Virus record (IMG/VR): IMGVR_UViG_3300044956_000267
Span: 1 to 25,503 of that record
Source: a virus
Strand: one strand, 5' to 3'
DNA: 25,503 bases
The first letter of the stretch is position 1, and every line of letters starts with the position of its first letter. Under the pieces are notes generated by a model. It was given only the letters and a program-made list of their open reading frames with translations. It did no database searches and was not told the origin of the DNA. The position numbers and the translations under genes are program-made. This document shows positions 3,655 to 24,184 of this stretch, one piece after another.

Positions 3655-6309
3655 CTACCTCCTGATGCCAAGTGATTCTAGCGCACCTGCTTCTCGCAAG
3701 CACTTGATGGTGCCAACGAACTCTCCTGACTGTTTCCACTGTTTTCCACCAGTGACACTACGGGCTGGGCATCGCTTGATGAGGTCGTCCATGGACGCGA
3801 ATGGTGCGCTTGACACGATTGTCTCGGCGCACCTGAACCCAATCCCCTTGATGGACGACAAGCCGCGCCGAATCGCTCCGTGCGTGGCGTCCAGCGTCCA
3901 AGTCTCTTGGGACACATTCACATCCGCAGGCAGTATCCGAATACCGACACGCCGCACTTCCTTTTCATAGACACGCTCCTTGTTGCTTCCCACCGTGGTT
4001 TCCAAGAGTGCCGTATGGAACTCCAGCGGATGATTGACCTTCAGATACGCCAGTTGGTATCCGAGAAGCCCGTATGCCGTGGCGTGCGCACGGTTGAACC
4101 CGTACGCCGCGAACCCTTCTACGAGTTTCCATGCCGCACTAATACGCCTGCCGTTCATTCCGCTGGCACGACACAGTTCAGAGAACTTGTTCTTGTTGGC
4201 ATCAAAGACCGACGCGGCGTGCTCAGAATAGCCAGCGACGGCGTGTTTGCCCTTGACTGCCTTCAGGAAGGCGTTGAGTTCAGCCACGGGCATTCCCAAG
4301 TCACGCAACACTTCCAGCACCTGCTCTTGGAAACACGGCACGCCGTATGTTTCGGACAAGTGCTTCTCAAACACATCACTTGGATACTTGACGGACGATG
4401 GGTTGCTCCTGTTCTTCAGAAACTGCTTGGTGTAGCCGCTGTCAATGGTGGCGGGTCGGTACAAGGCGTTCACGAGAACGATGTCGTCCACCGTCTTCAC
4501 GCCGATTTCGCGGCATCCACGGGCGGCAGTCCACCCCTCCAACTGGAACACGCCCGTTTCGGTCTTGCCGCGCCGCAGAAACTTGAATGTCTTCTCATCG
4601 TCCAGCGGTATCCAGTCGGTGCCCCGCTTGCCCAGCATGGTGAGACAGCGGTGCAGGGTGGTCAGCGAACGCAAGCCCAGCAGGTCAATCTTGATGTATC
4701 CCGCGTCCTCAACATCGTCCATCATCATCTGCGTCACGGTCGTATCCGAGGAAGGAATAAGCATGGTGGGAATCCAATCCCCGATTGCGTGCGATGGTGG
4801 CGCGGACACGACGAACCCAGCGGCGTGCGCTCCTGCGCTACGGCGCAATGGCATTTCGCCCAACAACCGAAGCCGCTCAGCGTCGCGCGGATGTAGTTCG
4901 TCTAGGTCGTGGAGATTGTTGATTCTGCCTATCTTGCGGGCGAACTGGTCGCCCAGTATTTTGCGCTTCGCGCTCATGTACTGAACGAACAAGCCGCCGC
5001 GTCCAGTCTCTTCGTCGTACGACAACCTGTTGTAAGTGCCTATCTGGACGACTTCGTACCTCTTTTTCAGGTACTCAATGACTTCATCGCGCCGCACATC
5101 TTCAATGTCAAGGTCAATGTCGGGAGGACGAATGCGGTCTACGGACAGAAAGCGGTCAAACGACAAGCGCCAGCGCAACGGGTCTACCTGAGTAATGCCC
5201 AGAAGCCAACAGACAAGCGAACCTGCGGCAGAACCCCGTGCCATAACGAGTGCGTCGTTGTCGTGGCACCACCCAACATAGTCATTCACGAGCATGAAGT
5301 AGTCAGCCATGCCAGTTGTCTCTATCACAGCGAGTTCTGCGTCCAATCTTGCGCAATACTCCGTGCGGGCGCCGCAACCCTTACTCTTGATGCGCGCGTT
5401 GCACAAAAGTCTCAACTGCTGGATTGGGTGCTTGGCGACCTCAGGAATGAAGTACTGATACTTGTCCAGAGGAGGAATCGCCAGCGCGTGATGGTCAAGT
5501 AACCAGCGGCACGAACTCTCTGATGCCGACCACACTTCGGGCTTGAAGTGCATCTTGACCCACTCGGTCGTTGCCAAGTGATAACTGTCTCCTGGATACG
5601 CCAAGTCCTTTTCGTCAGCGGAGTAGGCAATCATCCGCATCATGTTGTGCAGGTCTTTGTCTGCCTTGTCACAGTAGTGCGAATCCTGAGAAGCAATGGT
5701 GGGAAGCCCTAGGCGTTCTGCCATCTGAAACAGTTCGTTCACGAGTAGTTCGTCGTTCCAGCCGTCGCCGTGGTCGGCGCGATGGTTCTGAACCTCCACG
5801 AAAGTCCTGTCAAACAGACCGTCCAGCGTTTTCAGAATCGCCTCCGCCTTGCGATGGTCGCCGCCCACGATTGCCTGCGATACAAGCCCGAAATAACAGC
5901 CGCTTAGCGCCACGATGCCCCTCAACTTGTTGTCCGATGCCAAGCCAGCCAAGTCGTTGAGGTCAAGCAGTGGCTTGTAATAGTAGTGGTCGCGGGAGTG
6001 CGACAGCGACGACAGCGCCGCAAGGTTCTGATAGCCCTCAGTAGTGTAAGCCAACAGGGACAAGTGATTGCGCCGCACCTTGGTGTCCGCACGGTCGGTG
6101 ACGACATACGCCTCCAACCCCACGAACGGCAGAATGGAATGAGACTTGCACGCCTTGTACAACTGGAACGCACCACTCATGTTGCCATGGTCAGTCAGTG
6201 CCAGCGCTGGCTGGCGCATGGCGGCGGCTTTGGCGGCTAGAACAGAAATCTCTGCCATGCCGTCCAGACACGAAAACTCAGAATGGACATGGGTGTGGAA
6301 GAAGTTCAC
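3655..6309 (-). CDS. dnaE: C-family DNA polymerase III alpha subunit (short DnaE-like)
   Basis: This 884-residue replicative polymerase starts with a PHP domain: H5/H7/H9 in 'HTHVHS', D40-H41 in 'LTDHGN', E66, H82, C138 and 'QDSH' at 208-211. The PHP metal ligands look intact. The polymerase core follows, with 'MARGSAAGSL' near 357-365 and the catalytic aspartates D397 and D399 in 'PPDIDLDIED'. A helix-hairpin-helix ('SIKGIGFRCAETI') lies near the C terminus. It is about a quarter shorter than bacterial DnaE (around 1160 residues); the OB-fold and tau-binding tail appear to be missing. PHP domains with full ligands can proofread in mycobacterial DnaE1, so self-proofreading is plausible here. 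GTG 6309 overlaps the upstream stop as GTGA. Confidence 0.93.
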   Translation of the reverse strand: MNFFHTHVHSEFSCLDGMAEISVLAAKAAAMRQPALALTDHGNMSGAFQLYKACKSHSILPFVGLEAYVVTDRADTKVRRNHLSLLAYTTEGYQNLAALSSLSHSRDHYYYKPLLDLNDLAGLASDNKLRGIVALSGCYFGLVSQAIVGGDHRKAEAILKTLDGLFDRTFVEVQNHRADHGDGWNDELLVNELFQMAERLGLPTIASQDSHYCDKADKDLHNMMRMIAYSADEKDLAYPGDSYHLATTEWVKMHFKPEVWSASESSCRWLLDHHALAIPPLDKYQYFIPEVAKHPIQQLRLLCNARIKSKGCGARTEYCARLDAELAVIETTGMADYFMLVNDYVGWCHDNDALVMARGSAAGSLVCWLLGITQVDPLRWRLSFDRFLSVDRIRPPDIDLDIEDVRRDEVIEYLKKRYEVVQIGTYNRLSYDEETGRGGLFVQYMSAKRKILGDQFARKIGRINNLHDLDELHPRDAERLRLLGEMPLRRSAGAHAAGFVVSAPPSHAIGDWIPTMLIPSSDTTVTQMMMDDVEDAGYIKIDLLGLRSLTTLHRCLTMLGKRGTDWIPLDDEKTFKFLRRGKTETGVFQLEGWTAARGCREIGVKTVDDIVLVNALYRPATIDSGYTKQFLKNRSNPSSVKYPSDVFEKHLSETYGVPCFQEQVLEVLRDLGMPVAELNAFLKAVKGKHAVAGYSEHAASVFDANKNKFSELCRASGMNGRRISAAWKLVEGFAAYGFNRAHATAYGLLGYQLAYLKVNHPLEFHTALLETTVGSNKERVYEKEVRRVGIRILPADVNVSQETWTLDATHGAIRRGLSSIKGIGFRCAETIVSSAPFASMDDLIKRCPARSVTGGKQWKQSGEFVGTIKCLREAGALESLGIRR

Positions 6310-6755
6310 GACAACAGTGATGGCCAGAAGTATGGCAGGTTGTCGGGCGTTCTCGCCCAGAACTGACGATAGTGAGTGGGCAACTTGCGCAGGAGATTTG
6401 ACTTGTGCGACTGGTGTACGCGGTCGTCACCCCACCACCAAGGTAGTTCTTCGTTGCTCACCCCGCGTTCGCGCAGAAGGTTGGCAACCGCCCTGATTTT
6501 GGAGGCGCACGAGTCTTGATAGCCACGATTGACCCACTCATCGCAAATGGTCAGTCCGTAGGCGCCCAGCGACAGTTCACGCCCGAGCCACATCTTCGTG
6601 GCGGGATGGTTCTGCCAGCCGTATTCCCGTCCGCAACGGTAATGGTAGAGCGCCGTGATTATCTGAAGCGCTTCTACGCGCTGTTTACCAAGGCGCTGTC
6701 TGTCCAGCACTCTGGCACACGCAAGAAAGGTTGTACATGGCACGAATGTCTGCAT
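6306..6755 (-). CDS. MSMEG_6728-type protein (pyrimidine-dimer glycosylase-like family)
   Basis: The 149-residue sequence opens with 'MQTFVPCTTFLACARVLD', then 'RLGKQRVEALQI', 'GWQNHPATKMW' and 'AYGLTICDEWVNRGY'. I recognise this order from the actinobacterial MSMEG_6728 family, which is often annotated as similar to pyrimidine-dimer DNA glycosylases. If that holds, it would be a small base-excision repair enzyme acting on phage DNA. Its position directly before the polymerase gene, with a four-base overlap, supports a DNA-metabolism role. The start ATG 6755 has an AAGGAG ribosome-binding site and a CA-rich leader. The enzymatic activity is inferred from the family label, not from motifs I can verify. 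Confidence 0.7.
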   Translation of the reverse strand: MQTFVPCTTFLACARVLDRQRLGKQRVEALQIITALYHYRCGREYGWQNHPATKMWLGRELSLGAYGLTICDEWVNRGYQDSCASKIRAVANLLRERGVSNEELPWWWGDDRVHQSHKSNLLRKLPTHYRQFWARTPDNLPYFWPSLLS

Positions 6756-7484: not shown

Positions 7485-8489
7485 CTACTTCTCTGAGGCT
7501 TCCACGATAGCGGCGAGCATTTCTTCCTTGCTCATGTTTTGGTAGCCCTTGATGTCCATGTCGTCACAAATCACGCGAAGGTCGCGCAACTTCATGGAAG
7601 CGAGCACATCAGGATTCAGTTCGTCGTCGCTGTCCTTCTTGTCTGGCTTGTCTGGCTCTTGGGCAAACTGTTCGTTCAGAATGCCTTTGATGAGAACCTT
7701 CGCGTCGTCGTCCACATCCAGTTTCCACGATTCCGCAATCTCCTGCAACCAGTCTGGCTTGTGCTTCGCAGTCCATTCCAGTTCTGCCAGCGAGTAGTTT
7801 TCGCGGATGGTTTCGTCGGGAAACATGGTGTCGTAGGTGGGCTTCGGAGGTGCCGCCGTTGCCGTGGACTTGCCCGTTGCTACCAACTGGCGCTTGCGGG
7901 GCTGTTCGTCCTCGTCATCGTCGTCTTCATCCGTGTCAATGTCGTCGTCGTCCATGGTGGGCTTGGAAGGCTTGTCTGCTTCGCCCTCCCCCAACGCCGC
8001 TTCACGGGCTGTGATGAGCACTTGTTCCAAGTCCAGAAGTTCGTACTTGGAAAGATTCAGTCTGGAGGGGCCGTCTGGCGTCACATCGTAAGTCGTGTCC
8101 AGCCGTTCACCATGCTTCTGCAACTCGTAGTTGCGGTCGGTCATGGTGCCGAACTTGTCGTACTTGATGATGAGGCTGTTCGCGGCGGTCTTTGCCAACT
8201 TCAGGGGAATCACCCTGTCAGTCTCAATGTCTACCGCGTTTGCCAAGTAGCGGAACGATGGCTTGGCACCGTCGGGGAGAACTTCGCCCGATGCCATGGG
8301 CACGAATGTCCGCGATTCGTCGTTCCAGTATTCGTAGTAGCCGAACCACTCTTCGGGTTCCGTGAGAAACCGAACCGTGATGCCTTCCGCTGGCACATTC
8401 TTGATGAAAGAACTGCCAGAGCCGCCGCCCTTCTTCAGTGAATCTTTCAGGGCTTTGATGTTGCCCATCTTTCTTGCGCTGAGTTTCAT
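7485..8489 (-). CDS. Phage ssDNA-binding protein with C-terminal Rho_N-like domain
   Basis: The 334-residue protein has the look of phage SSB proteins: a basic start 'MKLSARKMGNIKALKDSLKKGGG', then a beta-rich core with 'GITVRFLTEPEEWFGYYEYW', 'FRYLANAVDIETDRVIPLKL', 'GTMTDRNYELQKHG' and 'TTYDVTPD'. A very acidic linker near residues 180-195 follows, then a C-terminal segment 'MKLRDLRVICDDMDIKGYQNM' that resembles Rho N-terminal/SAP domains. It would coat ssDNA during replication, with the acidic part recruiting partners. No zinc ligands like those of T4 gp32 are visible. ATG 8489 has AGGAGG nine bases upstream and follows a near-consensus promoter, fitting high expression. Confidence 0.72.
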   Translation of the reverse strand: MKLSARKMGNIKALKDSLKKGGGSGSSFIKNVPAEGITVRFLTEPEEWFGYYEYWNDESRTFVPMASGEVLPDGAKPSFRYLANAVDIETDRVIPLKLAKTAANSLIIKYDKFGTMTDRNYELQKHGERLDTTYDVTPDGPSRLNLSKYELLDLEQVLITAREAALGEGEADKPSKPTMDDDDIDTDEDDDDEDEQPRKRQLVATGKSTATAAPPKPTYDTMFPDETIRENYSLAELEWTAKHKPDWLQEIAESWKLDVDDDAKVLIKGILNEQFAQEPDKPDKKDSDDELNPDVLASMKLRDLRVICDDMDIKGYQNMSKEEMLAAIVEASEK

Positions 8490-8520
8490 GTTGGTGAACC
8501 TCCTAGGTTCTGTCATTGAC

Positions 8521-8549
8521 ACGATAGGCGCATTGACCCACGGTGTCAA
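8521..8549 (-). promoter_or_regulatory. Sigma-70-type promoter for the ssDNA-binding gene
   Basis: On the minus strand a perfect TTGACA (8549-8544) is followed after exactly 17 bases by TATCGT (8526-8521). Transcription would begin near 8514, leaving a leader of about 25 bases with AGGAGG before ATG 8489. This is the clearest promoter I can see in the window. It implies recognition by the host vegetative sigma factor. Confidence 0.72.
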
Positions 8550-8681
8550 GGAATAGGATAAGTGAGGGGGTTTCGCCCCTTCCCACACGGTCAGTCATGT
8601 CGTTCCGCACAACTAACCTATGAGTTGGGGACAACAGCGCCACGCTCAAAAGGATAAAGCGGGCACCCCCTCATGCTGTCG

Positions 8682-9002
8682 TTACGAACCTGAACGCGCG
8701 CCGTTACTGGTAAAGAATGCGCGTCTCTTGATACGGGGTCGGCGCTTTTTTTCCCGATTGACGATGCGCCTGCGTTCCCGAGGCGTCTTGCCACCGTACA
8801 CGCCATAATCCAGTTCATTGAGACGAAGTGCGTAGTCCAAACACTGCTTCCGAACCGCGCACTTCTTGCAGATTTGAACAGCCTGCTTGTACTCGCGCCA
8901 CGCTACCTGACCGCGCACAATGAGAGGAAAGAACACATCCTTGTCAATGTTGCGGCACTTGGCGCGTTCCATCCACGGTTCAGGCTTACAGAGCAGAATC
9001 AT
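8682..9002 (-). CDS. WhiB-family Fe-S transcriptional regulator
   Basis: The 106-residue protein has the complete WhiB pattern: C16, then C45-x2-C48-x5-C54, with 'DVFFP' after the first cysteine, 'DYALRLN', and the turn 'GVYGGKTPRERRR' at 67-79. A strongly basic C-terminal tail should contact DNA. It is the second WhiB in the window and, unlike the first, has no extra cysteines between the first ligand and the CxxC. ATG 9002 has an AAGGAG site, and the gene overlaps its upstream neighbour by 17 bases. About 190 bases holding the ssDNA-binding gene promoter follow its stop. Confidence 0.88.
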   Translation of the reverse strand: MILLCKPEPWMERAKCRNIDKDVFFPLIVRGQVAWREYKQAVQICKKCAVRKQCLDYALRLNELDYGVYGGKTPRERRRIVNREKKRRPRIKRRAFFTSNGARSGS

Positions 9003-9282
9003 CGGTGTCTCCTTCGTCGGTGTTCCATTGGTGTTTAGACATGAAGTCGTTCCACTCCTGTTGTGTTGGTGACGAGTTGAGAATGCCTGCCCACCAATCG
9101 TCGCTTTCCGAAGTGGCGGTGGAAACCTGAACATACTGCTCAATCGCACCGAAGACTGTCTTTAGCAACGCTGGATGAAGCGTCGTATTAGACACGAGAA
9201 TCTTGCCAAGTGCGTTAGCAAGCGCGTTGGCTACCTCTTGCCACGATGGTAGGTCAGATGGTGTGGGTGTGGGTGTTTTCAT
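8986..9282 (-). CDS. Hypothetical protein
   Basis: This 98-residue product has a Thr/Pro-rich start, a helical segment 'WQEVANALANALGKILV', and an acidic C-terminal end. I do not recognise it. ATG 9282 is supported by AGGAGA eight bases upstream, and that start lies within the end of the upstream gene (29-base overlap). It sits between an HNH endonuclease region and the second whiB and is probably cotranscribed with both. Confidence 0.6.
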   Translation of the reverse strand: MKTPTPTPSDLPSWQEVANALANALGKILVSNTTLHPALLKTVFGAIEQYVQVSTATSESDDWWAGILNSSPTQQEWNDFMSKHQWNTDEGDTDDSAL

Positions 9283-11569: not shown

Positions 11570-11797
11570 TTAGGAAATCTTGCTCGTGAAACTTGACAGT
11601 GAGATGCCCAACGCCACACAGAAGCGTTGGAGGGTGTCCATGGACGGTGAGAAGTGACCGCACTCAATGCGGTTCACGGTCTTCCTGTCCACGCCTGCGG
11701 CAGTTGCCAACTCGCCTTGCGTCAGGTTCTGTTCCTCGCGCAAGTCTTGTATCAGTGTCGCAATCCGCTGTCTCAGTTGCTTGTCTTGGTATCGCAT
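11570..11797 (-). CDS. Cro/CI-type helix-turn-helix regulator
   Basis: The 75-residue protein is a single XRE-type HTH domain: 'LREEQNLTQGELATAAGVDR' followed by 'KTVNRIECGHFSPSMDTLQR'. Small proteins of this kind act as repressors or control switches. ATG 11797 has an AGCAGGA site. Hairpins flank the gene on both sides (11837-11867 and 11523-11556), suggesting that its transcript is separated from its neighbours. It is a candidate binder for the palindromic repeats at 17434-17609, although nothing in the sequence proves that. Confidence 0.85.
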   Translation of the reverse strand: MRYQDKQLRQRIATLIQDLREEQNLTQGELATAAGVDRKTVNRIECGHFSPSMDTLQRFCVALGISLSSFTSKIS

Positions 11798-11836
11798 AGT
11801 CCTGCTTTCTTGTTGGGTTGAGTGTGAAACGAACAA

Positions 11837-11867
11837 CGGCGGCACTCCCTTGTGCGAAGTGCCGCCG
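11837..11867 (-). terminator. Hairpin between the unknown 148-residue gene and the HTH gene
   Basis: CGGCGGCACT (11837-11846) is perfectly complementary to AGTGCCGCCG (11858-11867) with an 11-base loop. It lies just after the stop at 11886. No T-run follows. It is unlike the family A-E hairpins in sequence but occupies the same kind of position. Confidence 0.5.
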
Positions 11868-11885
11868 CCATCGTCGTTGTCTGCC

Positions 11886-12332
11886 TTATTCGTCATCGCC
11901 CCACACGGTTGGCCACTCCGCGTTCCATCCGTTGTTGAGCACATCCCACTCTGATGGGTCGGTTCCGTCCACTTCCAGCGCATCCCACACCAACTGCGCG
12001 AACTCTGGCGACAGTCGGCTGGGATTGAGGATGAGACGAATGACTGAACCATCCGTGTTCTGAAGTTCCGCGAACACCTCTTTCGTCTGCCTGTCAATGT
12101 ACTTGACGACGGTGTTTTCGTCGGTGCCACCGAGGATGTCGTCCAGTGCTTGCTGGGCGAAGTTGCAGAGGCGCTTGAGTTCCTGTAGGGAGAACTCTGA
12201 GGCGTTGTCTGCTTCTTCTTGTGGTTCGGGCGCTTCTGTGTCTTCTGCCGCCTCTGGCTGTTCTTCTGGCGGCGTTGGGTCAGGTGCGAACCCGCGTGAC
12301 GGGCGCTTCACCTTCTTCTTCTTCGGTGCCAT
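11886..12332 (-). CDS. Hypothetical acidic protein
   Basis: A 148-residue product with a Lys-rich start ('MAPKKKKVKRP'), a Pro/Glu-rich disordered stretch (about 17-42), then a folded-looking part with 'LQELKRLCNFAQQALDDI' and 'SRLSPEFAQLVWDALEV'. Function unknown. ATG 12332 is preceded by AAAGGAG and a CA-rich leader. A candidate promoter lies just upstream, so this may be the first gene of its own transcript. Confidence 0.65.
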   Translation of the reverse strand: MAPKKKKVKRPSRGFAPDPTPPEEQPEAAEDTEAPEPQEEADNASEFSLQELKRLCNFAQQALDDILGGTDENTVVKYIDRQTKEVFAELQNTDGSVIRLILNPSRLSPEFAQLVWDALEVDGTDPSEWDVLNNGWNAEWPTVWGDDE

Positions 12333-12402: not shown

Positions 12403-14646
12403 TTATTGCCGCATTGCCACCGCCCTGATTACTTCTCGCCCAATCACCTTGGCGATTTCACGGCAGTTAGGTGCCTGTACCAAGTGGGCGTGCCCGCAGT
12501 TGGTGCGCCAAGGTTCATGCGGGTTGTGAGGGGACTGATGGAAGTTGCTGTACTGCCACTTATTTGCATGACTGTACGACTCTGGCAACTGGATGAGGAA
12601 GGACGACGCTCCACCACTACGGGTCGCGTTGTACACCGCCTTACAGAGGTCGCCGTCTATTGTCCACTGCCCGTCGGTGATGGAAAACAGCAACTTGTGC
12701 TTCGCTTCGCTCTTGGCGAGCATACGCAAGGCAATGGAAAGCGCCGTCGTGGGATGAGTGCCACCCTTGCCCTCAAAGAGAGCGAACTGCCCTAACCCAA
12801 CCTTTTCATCGCTGGAATAGAGCGGTGTGGCTGCGTTGTTGTATCCGATGACCGAGCACGGAATGTCTTGTGTCTGACACGCATACTTGATTGCCCACAT
12901 CGCCGCACACGCCTCCGACATGACTGTGCCCCACGCATTCGCTATACCGCTCTTGGGGTCAAACTGAGTGGGGATGTAGGAATCCATGCTTGACGAGCGG
13001 TCAAGAAGAATGACCACTTCGGCATCGGGGCGGTCGTCGCCATCATCCACCCATTCGTCAAAGAAGTCGGTGCTGAGGCCGCGACTGGTGGCGTGCTTCA
13101 GGGCATTCAGGCGCCCAACGAACGAGCCGCGCTCCCACTGGTTGTCCGTGTCAGCACGCAAGCGTTGGAGGGCGCTTGACAAGTTGGTGGCAAGCACCCG
13201 CTCGTTGGCAGAAGTTCCCCTCTTGCCGTTGTCGTTGAGACGATTGCGCCAGAACCGCTCGTCCGAAATCTTTTCGGCAACGGCATTGACCGAGTTCAGA
13301 GTGGACTTGGCGTCTTTGAGCATTTCATCCTTCGCGCTCTTCAGCAAGTCCTTGGCTTGGTCATACGCATCGTCGTAAGGCGAAGAGTTGCTCTCTTGAC
13401 TGCTACCCTGCTTCTTGTCGTCGTTGGAGTCGGTGTGGCGGCGCCCCGACTGAGACTGGTCGCTGTCAGTCTCATCGTCAGCATCACCATCGCCGTCGCC
13501 CTCGCCGTCTTCGTCGGCGTCTTCGTCGTCGTCGCTGTCTTCACCAGCGCCAACGCCGTCGCCCTCGGTGTCTTCATCGTCGTCGCTGTCGTCGCTTCCG
13601 ACACCGCCACCGCTCTCGCCGTCTTCTTTCTCGTCTTCGGCATCGCTGTCATCTATGGCAGGTTGCTGGTCTTCGGCGTCTCGGCTGTCGCCGTCGCGCT
13701 TGCCCTGCGTCCAGTTGCCGTGAGGGCCAGTGGGATTTTCGGGCACGAAACCCTGATGCGGGTCTAACTTCTCCATCAACTTGGCGAACTCAACGACAAT
13801 CGCGGTCGCCTCGCTGTGTTGCTTGGGGGCAAGCGTGAGACGGCGGTACTTGCCAATCAACTCTTCGGCACGAGCCAAATCCTTGTGGCTGAACTTGGCA
13901 GCAAGGGTTGGGGAGAGGATGAACTTGGCAACGAACGCATCACGCAAGGACTTGCGCAAACTCTTGGGCAAGAACTTGCGCCCGTACACGAGCAAGTAGT
14001 TCGCGGCTATCTTGTTGTTCTGGGCGTTGACCGACTCTTGGATGTCCGAACTCGTGGTGCCGCTGCACGCCGCCGTGATGTACTTCGCAACTGCGGCGGC
14101 GAACCAGTGATGAGACTGGGGGAACTTCGCCACGAACAGCGTCTCAATGCGCTGGTCTTCCAAGAGGTTGAACGCCGTACGCACATACTTGATGTCTACG
14201 GTGCCCGCTATGGCATTATGCCTTGAAGTGTGCGAGTGCGCTTCTATCCGCTTCCACAACTTGCCGTTGATACGAGGGCTGTACAAGACATGGGCAAGTT
14301 CGTGATAGTTCAGCCCTCTGAACCAAGCCAGCCTGCTCAGGATTTCTTCGTGCGACCGTCGTGTTGAGAACGCCCCGCCGCCCCTAGCAAGCACATCTAC
14401 CGCGAAGATGTCCTTGAGGGCGAAGTTGGAGAACCAAATGGTTGAGCCATCGGTCATGGCGGGCGCGTTGATGCTCAACCCCGCCGCTGGGTTGGCAATG
14501 TCCGTTCTCACACTGCGCCCCGCCAGCACGCTGTTCACGCGCGTGAAGAGGGAGAGCAGTGCTTCCACAAGTGTCCCCGTGGAAATCTGTTGAGGGTCGT
14601 CCGTCCATTCGGTCGGTTCAGCCGCACCTACCTTGGGATACCGCAT
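12403..14646 (-). CDS. VWA-domain protein with N-terminal HExxH metallopeptidase-like region (CobT-like)
   Basis: The 747-residue protein has an HExxH motif at 115-119 ('YHELAHVLYSP'), a helical region, and a long Asp/Glu/Gly/Ser linker over about 320-405. At the C terminus is a von Willebrand A domain with a full MIDAS: D549, S551 and S553 in 'DRSSS', a Thr near 630 and 'ITDG' near 656-659. VWA proteins of this layout work with MoxR/CobS-type AAA+ ATPases in insertion of metals or remodelling of target proteins. Such an ATPase is encoded immediately upstream. The acidic linker resembles that of CobT, while the HExxH part suggests a metal-dependent peptidase or a structural zinc site. ATG 14646 is preceded by GAAAGG and the ACGAATACC leader. 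Confidence 0.8.
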   Translation of the reverse strand: MRYPKVGAAEPTEWTDDPQQISTGTLVEALLSLFTRVNSVLAGRSVRTDIANPAAGLSINAPAMTDGSTIWFSNFALKDIFAVDVLARGGGAFSTRRSHEEILSRLAWFRGLNYHELAHVLYSPRINGKLWKRIEAHSHTSRHNAIAGTVDIKYVRTAFNLLEDQRIETLFVAKFPQSHHWFAAAVAKYITAACSGTTSSDIQESVNAQNNKIAANYLLVYGRKFLPKSLRKSLRDAFVAKFILSPTLAAKFSHKDLARAEELIGKYRRLTLAPKQHSEATAIVVEFAKLMEKLDPHQGFVPENPTGPHGNWTQGKRDGDSRDAEDQQPAIDDSDAEDEKEDGESGGGVGSDDSDDDEDTEGDGVGAGEDSDDDEDADEDGEGDGDGDADDETDSDQSQSGRRHTDSNDDKKQGSSQESNSSPYDDAYDQAKDLLKSAKDEMLKDAKSTLNSVNAVAEKISDERFWRNRLNDNGKRGTSANERVLATNLSSALQRLRADTDNQWERGSFVGRLNALKHATSRGLSTDFFDEWVDDGDDRPDAEVVILLDRSSSMDSYIPTQFDPKSGIANAWGTVMSEACAAMWAIKYACQTQDIPCSVIGYNNAATPLYSSDEKVGLGQFALFEGKGGTHPTTALSIALRMLAKSEAKHKLLFSITDGQWTIDGDLCKAVYNATRSGGASSFLIQLPESYSHANKWQYSNFHQSPHNPHEPWRTNCGHAHLVQAPNCREIAKVIGREVIRAVAMRQ

Positions 14647-14667
14647 TGTGAGTAAGCCTTTCGTTCG

Positions 14668-14681
14668 GGTATTCGTGGATG
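14668..14681 (-). promoter_or_regulatory. Start-associated leader motif, copy 1
   Basis: The minus strand reads CATCCACGAATACC, directly after hairpin copy B and 22 bases before ATG 14646. The same 14-mer occurs in front of the next three upstream genes. Confidence 0.7.
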
Positions 14682-14686
14682 TGAGC

Positions 14687-14722
14687 GGTGGTGGCGGCGC
14701 TTTTGTGAGCACCACCACCACC
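14687..14722 (-). repeat. Intergenic hairpin element, copy B
   Basis: The minus-strand RNA pairs GGTGGTGGTGGTGC with GCGCCGCCACCACC (14 pairs, two of them G-U) around the loop TCACAAAA. The same arms on the plus strand would give A-C mismatches, so the structure favours minus-strand RNA. It starts 17 bases after the stop of the MoxR gene. Confidence 0.8.
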
Positions 14723-16145: not shown

Positions 16146-16577
16146 CTACTTCTTCTTGGACGCCGCGTTGAGGGTCGGGATGATGGCGTCGTTGAAGAAG
16201 TACTTGACGCCAGTGCCCTTCTCCAACACGGTGACTTGGCTTCTGCCTCTGCCGCCCTTGACACCAGCGAACACGAATGTGCGGTTGCCGTGCCTGAACT
16301 GAGTGCCAATCTTGGCTTTCAGCACCAGTTCCTTGAAGTCACTCGTGTAACCCGTGTATCCGTACTTCTGATACAGGGAGACTTCGGGCGACTTCATGTT
16401 CACGCCCGTCGTCTTGTCTGTCTGAACCGCCACTGCTGAAATGGAGATTTTGAACGAATCGCCGTATTGAGCGCTCGTCTTGGTGATTTCCATTCCGTGC
16501 TTGGCGAGCACTGCGCTGGTTGCTTTCTTGATTTCTGCTGCGAGTGCTTTGCACTGCTGTTCCGTGATGGTACTCAC
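16146..16577 (-). CDS. Hypothetical protein, first gene of the MoxR-VWA module
   Basis: The 143-residue protein has an N-terminal helix ('QQCKALAAEIKKATSAVLAK'), a strand-rich middle ('FKISISAVAV') and a C-terminal part with 'IGTQFRHGNRTFVFAGVK', which looks like a small beta-barrel. No family recognised. I chose GTG 16577 because AAAGGAAG and the conserved leader lie just upstream; an earlier TTG at 16619 would place the leader inside the gene. It is the first gene of the four that share the leader. Confidence 0.65.
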   Translation of the reverse strand: MSTITEQQCKALAAEIKKATSAVLAKHGMEITKTSAQYGDSFKISISAVAVQTDKTTGVNMKSPEVSLYQKYGYTGYTSDFKELVLKAKIGTQFRHGNRTFVFAGVKGGRGRSQVTVLEKGTGVKYFFNDAIIPTLNAASKKK

Positions 16578-16598
16578 TAGATGTGTCTTCCTTTCGTT

Positions 16599-16612
16599 GG
16601 TATTCGTGGATG
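16599..16612 (-). promoter_or_regulatory. Start-associated leader motif, copy 4
   Basis: CATCCACGAATACC on the minus strand, followed by AACGAAAGGAAG and GTG 16577. A TTGACA directly overlaps its upstream end (TTGACAACATCC), but no good -10 element follows at the right distance. This copy has no family hairpin immediately before it. Confidence 0.65.
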
Positions 16613-16928
16613 TTGTCAATCGGTCTCACGACCTTGTGCCAGTGAGGGCTTCGCACCCATACACCCCTGATTACGAGCACTGGCGACCGCAGAACGGTTG
16701 AGTATCACAAGTTGCACCCTTTTCCACAGCCCAGTTCTTCCGAGGTACTTGCCGCCGCCGTCATCTTGGACTTATGCGTTCCCAGTTTTTGCGAGTTTGC
16801 AATCACCGATGCTACTTGCTGCCAGAGCAAGTGTCAGCGCAATGCTTGTCGCCCGTACTGCGCGTATCCCCGTGCCTTGCTGAGATTTTTACGAACTGAC
16901 GGCACACCGCCAGCAAGTCGTGAGAATG

Positions 16929-16958
16929 GGTGGCGGCGCCCGTATGAGCACTTCCACC
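16929..16958 (-). repeat. Intergenic hairpin element, copy E
   Basis: The minus strand reads GGTGG-aa-GTGC, loop TCATACGG, GCGC-cg-CCACC, the same inner sequence and loop as copy A. It sits in the gene-free region with no clear gene ending before it. It may mark a decayed gene or act as a site in its own right. Confidence 0.65.
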
Positions 16959-17433
16959 AACTTCACCTTGACAAGAACACAGAAGAGTTTGTAATCAGGC
17001 GGGAATACCACCTGCTTCCAGTCTGTGAGTACGAACTTGTGTGACGGAATCGCACCGTCGCCCTTCCGTGAGGTCAGCCCGTCAGTGTCTTCGGGGCATT
17101 CGGAATGGGTGCCGCTTCGGAATCGGAGTATTCGCTTATCCGTTGGTTGGGTTGAGGCGCCTATCTTGTTGGTCGCCGCACGGTTCACTGCCGTTCACCA
17201 CTAGACCGCCGTTACCCCGTGAGCCTTTCGTTTTGGCAGTGCGGTCGTCCCTTGGTCAGAGGCTTTGTTGTTCGGAACAAGTGTGAGTTCGTGACCCTTG
17301 TTGTCACCGCTTGCCCAGAGGCTTACTGACACTGCCTTGCGAGAGGAAGTTCACGGTCGGGCTGTCCTGAGCCGTTCATCCTTTGCGGTCATCTGAAGTT
17401 GTCAAGGTGCGAATACCAGTGTATCCCCAGAGA

Positions 17434-17609
17434 AAAGCCTTGTCCAGTCAGGGTTTTGTGGGGGTACCCGATAAAAGCCTTATTCCATAAGGGTTTCCTG
17501 TGACCTGAAAGCCTTATGGAATAAGGGTTTCCCGCGACCTGCTCATAACCTGAAAGCCTTATTCCATAAGGGTTTTCCGCGACCTGAAAGCCTTATTCCA
17601 TAAGGGTTT
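17434..17609. repeat. Array of five palindromic 23-base repeats (candidate iterons or operators)
   Basis: Each unit is AAAGCC...GGGTTT around a 15-base dyad CCTTATTCCATAAGG. Units start at 17434 (degenerate), 17474, 17508, 17553 and 17587. The third has the centre inverted (GGA for TCC), as expected if the dyad matters and its orientation does not. Spacers between units 2-3, 3-4 and 4-5 are 11, 22 and 11 bases, about one or two helical turns, so all four good copies lie on the same DNA face. The spacers share a GACCTG or AACCTG end. A dimeric initiator or repressor would be the expected binder. Confidence 0.85.
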
Positions 17610-17706
17610 CCTCAGGGTATCCCCTGTTTCCCTTATTGGGCTTGGGCTGGATAGGGGCGCCAATACCGCCTCTTGGGGCGTTGGCGGGGCACGCCCAGCC
17701 CAGTAT

Positions 17707-17726
17707 GGGCGAACTGGTGTTCGCCC
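17707..17726. repeat. Perfect 8-base-pair hairpin
   Basis: GGGCGAAC and GTTCGCCC flank a TGGT loop. It lies about 100 bases to the right of the palindromic array, within the gene-free region. Confidence 0.7.
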
Positions 17727-17734
17727 GTTATCCC

Positions 17735-17788
17735 GCCAGAACGCGCCAGAACGCGCCCATACTCCCGTTCACACTGAACGACTGAACG
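17735..17788. repeat. Short tandem repeats and dyad beside the array
   Basis: GCCAGAACGC is repeated in tandem at 17735-17744 and 17745-17754 (plus three further bases). CGTTCA-cac-TGAACG forms a small dyad at 17766-17780. ACTGAACG is repeated in tandem at 17773-17788. Such clustered short repeats are common in origins. Confidence 0.6.
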
Positions 17789-17949
17789 AATGTGGGAATG
17801 GTGCGTTGCAGTTGCGCGTGAGAACAGGTGGCGGCGCAAAAATGAGTGCAGCGCATCATCAAGCGCCAGCAGGATTGTATTCATCACTATTGCTAACTAG
17901 ACAGGAGAACAATCGCGCATTACGCTGTCGCGCTACCAAGGCGCGCCTC

Positions 17950-18024
17950 CCTACTGGTACTGATACCAAGTGATTGGCACCAAGAAACAGAAAGAATACT
18001 TCTCTTAGTACGAATACCAGTAGG
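17950..18024. promoter_or_regulatory. Inverted repeat upstream of the helicase operon
   Basis: CCTACTGGTA at 17950-17959 is inverted as TACCAGTAGG at 18015-18024. A smaller GGTA-ctga-TACC dyad overlaps the left arm. The right arm overlaps the ten-base ACGAATACCA motif (18010-18019), which also occurs in the leaders of the MoxR-VWA module. This is where the helicase promoter and its operator should lie; no convincing -10/-35 pair stands out. Confidence 0.55.
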
Positions 18025-18056
18025 AAGCCACACCACCAAGCACCAAGGAGCACCGC

Positions 18057-19325
18057 ATGACAACTTCCGCCATAGAAGCGCTTCTGATTTCCGCAGTGCT
18101 CAGACAGGAAGATTACCGCACACCGCTACTTGAAGGCGTCATGCCAGAGTGGTTCGTGTCGTATCGCGCCGAATGGGAATGGATTGCTCGCTACATAGAA
18201 CGGCACCACAAGGCACCGTCAAAGTCTCTGTTCAAGACGACCTTCCCCGATTTCTCGGTCATGAAGGCGGACGATGTGGAATACTGCGTTCAGGAAGTCA
18301 AGGAGGCGTACCTGCGGCGTTCCATTATCCTCTTGATGGACGACTTGGCAGGAAAGATTCGTGACGGCACTGCTCCAAGCGAGATGATTGATTTCGGCCA
18401 GCGCCAACTCAACCAGTTGCAGGTTCAGTCAGATGGTGCCAAGAACGAGACGGACATCGTGGAAGACTGGTCGTTGGCATACGGCGAGGCGGCACGACGA
18501 TACGAACGCCGAAACGAGAAGGGGCTTGCTGGGGTGCCAACTGGCTTTCCAACTCTGGACAACCTGACTGGCGGTGTACAGGAGGGCGACTACTGGATTG
18601 TGGCGGCCCGTCTCGGTCAGGGAAAGACATGGACGCTTATCCGAATGGCTTGCACTGCTCTGTACAGGGGCATGGTGGTTCAGTACGACGCCTTGGAGCA
18701 GTCACGGGCACAGATTGCGATGCGCTCTCACAGTTTCTTGTCCAGTATGTACGGTCGTCAGGTATTCCGCTCAATGGATTTGATGCACGGAAAAGACTTT
18801 GACCTAAAGGCATACCGAGACTTTCTGAACGGACTGAAAGACAAGATGAGCGGCAAGTTCTTCGTGAACGACACTTCTCGGGGCAGGCTGAACCCAAGCA
18901 TGATTGCCGCACAGATAGAGCGAAACAAACCGAATGTGGTCTTCATTGACTATCTCACGCTGATGAACACGGGCGGCGACGACTGGAAGGCGATTGCGAA
19001 CCTGTCGGCGGAGTTGAAGGGCATCGCCATGCACTATCAAGTACCCATCGTGGCGGCGGCTCAAATCAACCGTATGGCTATCGGCAACGATGTGCCGCGA
19101 GCAGAACACTTGGCTGGTGCGGACGCTATCGGGCAGGACGCCGACTGCGTAGTGACGATGAAACAGATGTCTGCTCATGTCGTCAAGATGCACTTGGCTA
19201 AGTTCCGCCACGGCTCCGACGGTCAGACATGGATGAACGAGTTCCGCCCCAACTCTGGGAAGTTTGACGAAATCAGTACCGACAAGGCAGAAGAAATCAT
19301 GCAGGACGATAAGGAGATGGCGTGA
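18057..19325 (+). CDS. DnaB-family replicative DNA helicase
   Basis: The 422-residue protein has a short N-terminal helical domain and a RecA-like motor: Walker A at 184-191 (ARLGQGKT), 'YDALEQSRAQIAMR' as motif 1a-like, Walker B 'NVVFIDYLTLM' near 290, 'AAAQINR' and a C-terminal 'MKMHLAKFRHG'-like arginine-finger region. It should form a hexamer that unwinds DNA at the fork and recruits primase. ATG 18057 has AAGGAG seven bases upstream. It is the first of two plus-strand genes and reads away from the repeat-rich control region. The GTGA overlap with the primase gene shows translational coupling. Confidence 0.92.
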   Translation: MTTSAIEALLISAVLRQEDYRTPLLEGVMPEWFVSYRAEWEWIARYIERHHKAPSKSLFKTTFPDFSVMKADDVEYCVQEVKEAYLRRSIILLMDDLAGKIRDGTAPSEMIDFGQRQLNQLQVQSDGAKNETDIVEDWSLAYGEAARRYERRNEKGLAGVPTGFPTLDNLTGGVQEGDYWIVAARLGQGKTWTLIRMACTALYRGMVVQYDALEQSRAQIAMRSHSFLSSMYGRQVFRSMDLMHGKDFDLKAYRDFLNGLKDKMSGKFFVNDTSRGRLNPSMIAAQIERNKPNVVFIDYLTLMNTGGDDWKAIANLSAELKGIAMHYQVPIVAAAQINRMAIGNDVPRAEHLAGADAIGQDADCVVTMKQMSAHVVKMHLAKFRHGSDGQTWMNEFRPNSGKFDEISTDKAEEIMQDDKEMA

Positions 19326-20326
19326 TACAAGTACAACACAATGGTGGTCGTTCGGAGACGATTGTTCGCTTCCTGAAGCGGCACCTGAAGGTGACGAGCA
19401 AGAACGGGCTGGAATGGCAGGCATTGTGTCCGTATCACGACGACAAGACCCCCTCGTTCAGTGTGAACATTCGCAAGGGGCTGTTCATTTGCTACGCCTG
19501 TGGAGCCAAGGGCAACATGAAACAACTAGCGGAACATCTCCAAGCCAGCGCCCCAATGGTTCACGAACCGACGATAGAAGAACTAGAAGCAGAGTTGGCA
19601 AATCTGAAGCAGTCAATGGCGCAGGCTGACCGCCCGATTGTCGGACTCAAAGTGCCGCCAATCTACACAACGCCCGAAGCGACCCGCGTGTGCCAAGAGT
19701 ACTTCGGTGCGAAGCGCAATCTGAACACGGAAACAATAGAAAGATACCGTCTCTGTGCTGACACTGTTCACAACGAAGCACTGATTCCAGTGTGTGACTT
19801 GGAGGGGCGCATCGCCTTTTTCATTCGTCGTGCGATTGACTGGGATGGAGCAGGGCTGAAGTATCGCTATCCCAAGGGCGCCAAGGTGTCCGAGTATCTG
19901 TTCGGCGCAGACATCGCTAAGAAGTGGTTCTCAACCACGACTAGCACCAAGCAGACTGTGCTGGTCATTACGGAGGGGACATTGGATGCCATGTCGGTAG
20001 ATAATCCGCCAGTGAAAAGAGATGTCTGGAATAGGCACGACGCTGTGATGTGTGGGGTTGCGGTCATGGGCGCCAAAATCTCTGAAACGCAAGCCCACCT
20101 TGTTCAGAAACTGGCTCCGTCGCTCATCTTCATCGGAACCGACAGTGACCGTGCTGGTAGGGAAGCGGCGATGCAGATAGAAAACGCTCTTCGCGCCGTT
20201 CGTGTTGGTGGCCCGTTCGTTCATCTGGCGTGGAGCAACAACTACAAAGACCTGAACGAACTGCCCGAAGACCAACTACTTGAAACTCTGGACGAGGCCT
20301 TCGCCCGTCATCCGCTTAGCAAATAG
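19322..20326 (+). CDS. DnaG-type DNA primase
   Basis: The 334-residue protein begins with a CHC2-type zinc motif (C36-x2-H39-x17-C57-x2-C60). The catalytic TOPRIM core follows, with 'VLVITEGTLDAMS' near 213-225 supplying the catalytic Glu and 'GTDSDRAG' near 270-277 the acidic DxD. It makes RNA primers at the fork. It is much shorter than bacterial DnaG (about 600 residues) and lacks a recognisable C-terminal helicase-binding domain. GTG 19322 overlaps the helicase stop, with AAGGAG upstream. The gene ends about 107 bases before an intrinsic terminator. Confidence 0.92.
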   Translation: MIQVQHNGGRSETIVRFLKRHLKVTSKNGLEWQALCPYHDDKTPSFSVNIRKGLFICYACGAKGNMKQLAEHLQASAPMVHEPTIEELEAELANLKQSMAQADRPIVGLKVPPIYTTPEATRVCQEYFGAKRNLNTETIERYRLCADTVHNEALIPVCDLEGRIAFFIRRAIDWDGAGLKYRYPKGAKVSEYLFGADIAKKWFSTTTSTKQTVLVITEGTLDAMSVDNPPVKRDVWNRHDAVMCGVAVMGAKISETQAHLVQKLAPSLIFIGTDSDRAGREAAMQIENALRAVRVGGPFVHLAWSNNYKDLNELPEDQLLETLDEAFARHPLSK

Positions 20327-23267: not shown

Positions 23268-24184
23268 AGCAACATCCTACATCTTGTGACGCTTGTGTGC
23301 AGGCGATTCTTGGCAATAGTGACATACTCGCTGTTCAGTTCGCATCCGACCCACCGTCTGTTGAGGCGTTCAGCGACTACGGCAACCGTTCCAGAACCGA
23401 GAAACGGGTCAAGCACAATGTCGCCTTTTCGTGTTGCCGCAAGAATGCACGGCTCCACGAGCGCTTCGGGCATAACGGCGAAATGCGCCCCCTGAAAGGG
23501 CTTGGTGGGAATAGTCCATACGGAGCGGCGGTTGCGTTTGCCGTCAGCACCCCAAACTCTTGCACCTGCCGAAAACCTGTCGCCGTTCGGATAGTCCGCT
23601 TGGTATCCCTCGCCGTGCTTGTCGCGCACCGCTGGTGGCGTTTTGGCCTGCTCTTTGATGGCTTCGTGGTCGTAGTAATACTTCGGTGACTTGCTCAACA
23701 GAAACAAGTATTCGTGGGCTTTCGTGCATCGGTCGCTCACCGACTCGGGCATCGGGTTCGGCTTGTGCCAGATGATGTCTTGTCGCAGGTACCAGCCGTC
23801 GGCTTGGAGGGCGAACGCCACGCGCCACGGGATGCCCACGAGGTCTTTCGGTTTCAATCCTTCGGGAACTATTCCACCAGTCTTGTGCTCTAAGTGTCGT
23901 TCGTTGTGTCTTGCTCCAAGATTTCCAGCAGGCCCTTTGCCGCTACCCGAGTATGAGTCGCCCAAGTTGAGCCACAATGTTCCGTCGTCGCACAACACGC
24001 GCCACACCTTGCGGAACACGGCAACGAGTTTGTTTACATACTCTTCGGGGGTTTGTTCCAGCCCGATTTGACAGTTGCTCCCGTAGTCCCGCAACCCCCA
24101 GTATGGAGGGCTTGTCACGACTGTTTGTATGGTGCTGTTTTCCAGTTTGTGTAACTGTTTGCGGCAGTCACCGACGAGAATCAT
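23264..24184 (-). CDS. Site-specific DNA methyltransferase (N4/N6-type)
   Basis: The 306-residue protein has motif IV SPPYWG at 25-30 early and the SAM-binding motif DPFLGSGT at 259-266 late, the order of beta-class amino-methyltransferases. SPPY favours N4-cytosine or N6-adenine methylation. It would modify phage DNA, either to evade host restriction or to mark DNA. No cognate restriction enzyme is visible. The segment around 85-115 and 'IIWHKPNPMPESV' near 137-149 match related phage enzymes. ATG 24184 overlaps the upstream stop as ATGA. Confidence 0.9.
   Translation of the reverse strand: MILVGDCRKQLHKLENSTIQTVVTSPPYWGLRDYGSNCQIGLEQTPEEYVNKLVAVFRKVWRVLCDDGTLWLNLGDSYSGSGKGPAGNLGARHNERHLEHKTGGIVPEGLKPKDLVGIPWRVAFALQADGWYLRQDIIWHKPNPMPESVSDRCTKAHEYLFLLSKSPKYYYDHEAIKEQAKTPPAVRDKHGEGYQADYPNGDRFSAGARVWGADGKRNRRSVWTIPTKPFQGAHFAVMPEALVEPCILAATRKGDIVLDPFLGSGTVAVVAERLNRRWVGCELNSEYVTIAKNRLHTSVTRCRMLL

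Follow-up and report, generated by a model that had tools for sequence, protein, structure and literature searches.

Repeated dyads upstream of a phage dnaB gene as a probable origin element with counterparts at Cch and D5 helicase loci

The window, a virus record of 25,503 bases analysed over its whole length, contains at 17434–17609 an array of dyads that is probably part of the replication origin of this phage, its units representing origin-centre dyads of the form AAAnCC-(about 11 bp, usually AT-rich)-GGnTTT. This reading, which is drawn from sequence comparison, is favoured because the array keeps its place upstream of dnaB in six relatives, and because the same dyad lies at the centre of iterons immediately 3' of the genes for Cch and D5 helicases, the established position of the SaPI/PICI, SCCmec and pRN1 origins. 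The preliminary description of this DNA had offered either iterons of an origin or cooperative operators; the positional conservation and the dyad 3' of Cch/D5 strengthen the former, and the latter persist as a rival. What is probably new is that one dyad is shared by probable origins with unrelated initiators. In the open-access literature, we found no earlier report of a shared centre sequence and no relevant paper in which the core sequence is printed; an 'ssNA-helicase' motif was not found by name in a relevant paper.

The core AAAGCCTTATNNNATAAGGGTTT occurs in the array four times exactly and once in degenerate form, and had no match in 100 shuffles. Across the whole record, CCTTATNNNATAAGG is confined to the array, and all five sites of the general form AAAnCC-(9–13)-GGnTTT in the window lie inside it (Table 1). 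The five 23-base units first described were confirmed, but their dyad exceeds the 15 bases assigned to it, reaching out to AAA/TTT and containing a single unpaired position, where G faces G. The asymmetric GCC...GGG points in the same direction in all five units, and the TCC/GGA centre is a free loop, for which other loci have 30 or more different triplets. The flipped centre of one unit, which had been taken to mean that symmetry is conserved instead of orientation, involves this variable loop only. The spacers are indeed 11, 22 and 11 bases long, near multiples of a helical turn. The four good copies nevertheless do not share one helical face, as had been suggested, because the centre-to-centre steps are 34, 45 and 34 bp, which places the copies at 0, 86, 189 and 274 degrees at 10.5 bp per turn; the helical register of repeats expected of an iteron origin is therefore absent. 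No inverted iterons are evident in the window outside the array, and within it there are only the direct GACCTG spacers. A 14-base direct repeat, GTGCGAATACCAGT (17407–17420) and GTACGAATACCAGT (18008–18021), flanks the array on both sides, and its second copy also forms one arm of a 34-base imperfect inverted repeat (17940–17973 and 18001–18034) just before dnaB; these direct and inverted repeats are possibly operators.

Table 1 Array units, spacers and flanking features in window coordinates
Feature	Position	Strand	Basis or remark
Predicted origin region, free of genes and flanked by divergent genes	16681–18056		Small ORFs unmatched in L219–L225
Degenerate dyad unit AAAGCCTTGTCCAGTCAGGGTTT	17434–17456	+	3 mismatches to core; AAAGCC...GGGTTT kept
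Dyad unit AAAGCCTTATTCCATAAGGGTTT	17474–17496	+	Core exact
Spacer CCTGTGACCTG, direct repeat GACCTG	17497–17507	+	Sequence
Dyad unit AAAGCCTTATGGAATAAGGGTTT, loop GGA	17508–17530	+	Core exact; outer GCC...GGG direction as in other units
Spacer CCCGCGACCTGCTCATAACCTG	17531–17552	+	Sequence
Dyad unit AAAGCCTTATTCCATAAGGGTTT	17553–17575	+	Core exact
Spacer TCCGCGACCTG	17576–17586	+	Sequence
Dyad unit AAAGCCTTATTCCATAAGGGTTT	17587–17609	+	Core exact
DnaB-like replicative helicase	18057–19325	+	PF03796 E 2.9e-31; phrog_19 E 1.3e-71
DnaG-type primase	19322–20326	+	PF01807 and PF13155; phrog_47

The array lies in a 1.4-kb gap between a minus-strand ORF on the left (16339–16680), which has no family match, and the plus-strand dnaB on the right. 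The position between divergent transcription units, about 450 bases from the helicase gene, is as first described: the array is 5' of dnaB at a measured distance of 448 bp and is separated from the left ORF by about 750 bp. Among the relatives, the small ORFs of the gap were matched solely in near-identical copies of the same phage, and blastn of the array region against annotated phages returned no match. Cumulative GC skew, a check named at the outset, has its minimum at 13.8 kb, away from the array, in a sequence that is a fragment. The window encodes two WhiB-like regulators (481–1032 and 8685–9149) and its DnaB has actinophages as best hits, which together suggests an actinobacterial host.

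Ten contigs with related DnaB proteins were available, of which three were near-identical to the window (DnaB 100%), one was cut off near dnaB and six had usable upstream DNA. In all six (DnaB 77–81% identical), AAAnCC...GGnTTT dyads are present about 300–600 bp upstream of dnaB, with arms and loops that differ. Absence of the repeats at the same place in close relatives had been named as the result that would count against the initial proposal, and the opposite was found. Within 700 bp upstream of dnaB, the window and the six relatives together hold 20 AAAnCC-(9–13)-GGnTTT sites, counted after merging 25 overlapping pattern matches, versus 0.12 expected from shuffles, and none are found in the 72 kb that make up the rest of these contigs. 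In the nearest named actinophages (DnaB 41–42% identity), the dyad is absent.

Pattern searches revealed the dyad far beyond this group. The exact 17-base core GCCTTATNNNATAAGGGTTT was found at at least 119 viral loci, versus five for a scrambled-arm control, and an exact 20-base form in 114 genome stretches from bacteria and archaea, versus about 0.5 expected by our own estimate assuming even base composition. Iteron-like flanks (at least three copies of some 8-mer) accompany the core at 40% of 63 distinct viral loci and in 1.7% of shuffles. These flanking iterons are phage-specific and often inverted around the core, as with GGTGTAAC...GTTACACC at locus L033; locus L041 has GTAACC repeats. 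DUF927/Cch and DUF5906/D5 helicases are the commonest replication families in the neighbouring genes, and in all eight cases examined the core lies 3' of the Cch or D5 stop codon. Further candidates were DnaA near L236 and two Rep3 neighbours, and one virus contig carries a match to the type II hammerhead ribozyme (L006, 2309–2377) about 480 bp before its primase-helicase gene. A general preference for the asymmetric GCC...GGG over symmetric forms was considered and set aside, the distinct counts (at least 63 versus 57 and 13) fitting independent half-sites by our own estimate.

The exact-match counts are a mixture and do not by themselves prove an origin role, because many of the chromosomal matches are ordinary-looking hairpins that lie near housekeeping genes or tRNAs. 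In one Oscillospiraceae genome (L255, 6590–6612), dnaA and dnaN are separated by a region with the exact core, which has about ten DnaA-box-like sites around it and a DnaA-trio-like stretch next to it and is the sole copy in that genome within three mismatches. We did not adopt a general role in chromosomal oriC, for which this locus is the one clear case: among 146 genomes of the same family, none of 30 hits examined was oriC-like and many were terminator-like. Two further candidate origins were rejected; the DnaA boxes near the core lie within a long ORF at L235, and at L312 the core and its DnaA boxes are beside secA.

Since a pattern search could mislead, Cch and D5/SF3 loci were also gathered by protein similarity alone. 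Downstream of Cch, a site with at most four mismatches was present in nine of 52 distinct regions (one of them, L397, on the contig of L033, which seeded the search), versus none of 52 upstream regions and about zero in shuffles. A half-site matrix trained on the Cch sites and applied to the separate D5/SF3 set gave scores of at least 12 in 10 of 34 regions downstream of D5/SF3 genes, versus one of 34 upstream and 0.45 expected; two of these ten are not independent, as L508 comes from the contig of L006 and L526 resembles L051, both L006 and L051 being earlier pattern finds used as queries. The L051 region had no match in complete E. coli genomes, and L526 had none in phage records. Under half of the Cch and D5 loci have a recognisable dyad. 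The sites occupy the middle of inverted repeats more frequently than expected from pairs taken across loci. Three regions downstream of Cch (L426, L428 and L454) contain two different dyads about 190 bp apart, both within GTTACC-type iterons, a partial parallel to the repeated dyads of the window. The Cch-derived half-site is AAAnCC(T/G)(T/C)AT, and arms at Cch and D5 loci are often mismatched, for example CCTTAT against ATGCGG. In a covariation test on the 16 unbiased Cch sites, a small set, pairing of the variable positions was no commoner than between different loci. This tips the balance slightly towards a duplex site for a symmetric protein, or a melting centre defined by its sequence, and away from an obligate hairpin.

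The array might instead be a set of cooperative operators, with a phage regulator such as the HTH_3 protein (11573–12130) or a WhiB-like protein binding the dyads and controlling both divergent units. HTH and WhiB-like proteins are encoded in the window, the array is intergenic between divergent genes, and symmetric half-sites that vary without covariation are as expected of a dimer site. However, the distances to dnaB and to the left ORF are long for promoter operators, the copies are off a common helical face, and phages whose genes are unrelated have the same site at their iteron arrays, whereas an operator normally evolves in step with its repressor. We therefore regard this alternative as unlikely, though it is the strongest of those considered.

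It is considerably less probable that the units act as RNA hairpins, that is, as intrinsic terminators or transcript elements. A single unit folds at −5.4 kcal/mol as DNA on the GCC...GGG strand (−2.8 kcal/mol on the complement), and hairpins much like it are found after genes and tRNAs in numerous genomes. Yet each unit is followed by just three or four T residues, a terminator scan called none of the five, terminators would be out of place between the 5' ends of divergent genes, and at Cch/D5 loci the arms are often mismatched. A search of Rfam at the family gathering cut-off, covering the window region and 12 core loci, gave no match at the core. A partition, packaging or resolution site, with the palindromes as a centromere-like, pac-like or Holliday-junction target, is the least probable reading: ParA- or ParB-like neighbours are found at two core loci (L337 and L318) and the proteins of the window include one that is RuvC-like and a Holliday junction resolvase of phrog_2002, but replication helicases and initiators, not Par proteins, are the commonest families beside the core, and terminase genes make up three of 107 neighbours and do not show the 3' arrangement of the Cch and D5 loci. 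The ParB-like protein mentioned in the preliminary description was not recovered among the window proteins scanned.

The origin reading can be set against several known systems. Iteron origins such as lambda ori and those of Rep plasmids carry four or five repeats, each about 20 bp long, beside replication genes. Like them, the window has a direct-repeat array that is non-coding, adjoins replication genes and is conserved in relatives; it differs in that its units are dyads, not plain direct repeats, that they are out of helical phase, and that no cognate initiator was recognised. In SaPI/PICI origins, two iteron sets surround an AT-rich centre beside replication genes (PMC6092414), and we found no mention there of a shared centre sequence. 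The Cch/D5 loci with the dyad have this plan and the 3' position in common with SaPI/PICI: they lie immediately 3' of the rep/helicase initiator gene, and many have two iteron sets flanking an AT-rich region. In the window, neither feature is found; the array is 5' of dnaB, no rep gene is beside it, and the centre itself is repeated. The SaPI-like phage PT1028 showed no convincing dyad.

The SCCmec Cch2 origin consists of iterons and an inverted repeat directly downstream of the helicase gene, and deletion of the inverted repeat left Cch2 binding unaffected (PMC7581432). If that repeat is related to the dyad, this result fits a role other than initiator binding, and the dyad may bear on the function of an element that is dispensable for Cch2 binding; the window, in contrast, belongs to a DnaB/DnaG phage. 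The pRN1 origin has a palindromic stem-loop just 3' of the primase-helicase gene, an arrangement also suggested for phage BIP-1 (PMC4234260). That stem-loop is about 100 nt long and conserved in structure, not sequence, whereas the dyad is 23 bp long and conserved in sequence.

Several points count against an origin role for the array. No Cch or D5 initiator is encoded in the window, the array is 5' of dnaB instead of 3' of an initiator gene, and inverted iterons are not evident around it; the dyad is missing from the nearest named actinophages and from more than half of the Cch and D5 loci in recognisable form, many chromosomal matches resemble ordinary hairpins, and GC skew gives no support. 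With no self-loading initiator recognised in this phage, only sequence and context link its array to the Cch/D5 origins. At those origins, we infer that phage-specific iterons would recruit the cognate initiator and that the shared dyad would mark the stretch to be opened, either as a symmetric duplex site bound by a factor that many hosts share or by extrusion as a hairpin, after which helicase and primase would load there. The window phage has DnaB and DnaG and no recognised self-loading helicase, and its dyad is itself repeated together with the GACCTG spacer; here the dyad repeats may act as the iteron, bringing DnaB and primase to melted DNA.

More tentatively, and with odds that we place clearly below even, AAAnCC-N11-GGnTTT could be an origin-centre element in general use among the replicons of phages and mobile elements. 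A host factor found widely, or a particular DNA structure, would act on it, which would let it work with initiators as unrelated as MCM-like Cch, SF3/D5 and DnaB-DnaG systems and the DnaA of at least one chromosomal origin. A near-constant 23-bp centre at origins with unrelated helicases would be unexpected, because iterons differ from replicon to replicon, and raises the question of which common factor or DNA structure needs the dyad sequence. If the generalisation is true, origin prediction in uncultured phages becomes possible.

Several other genes of the window merit mention. The two possible Holliday junction resolvases, RuvC-like and phrog_2002, are encoded at 746–1279 and 2370–2840, a pyrimidine-dimer glycosylase-like protein at 6309–6755, and an SSB-like protein with a C-terminal Rho_N domain at 7488–8588. 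A 772-residue protein (12406–14721), with no Pfam match and only one very weak PHROG match, adjoins an AAA_5 ATPase and is partly conserved in relatives. Outside the DNA methylase gene, nothing in the phage collection closely matches the window; within that gene, 23690–23856 has about 80% DNA identity to Pseudomonas and Shewanella phage genes.
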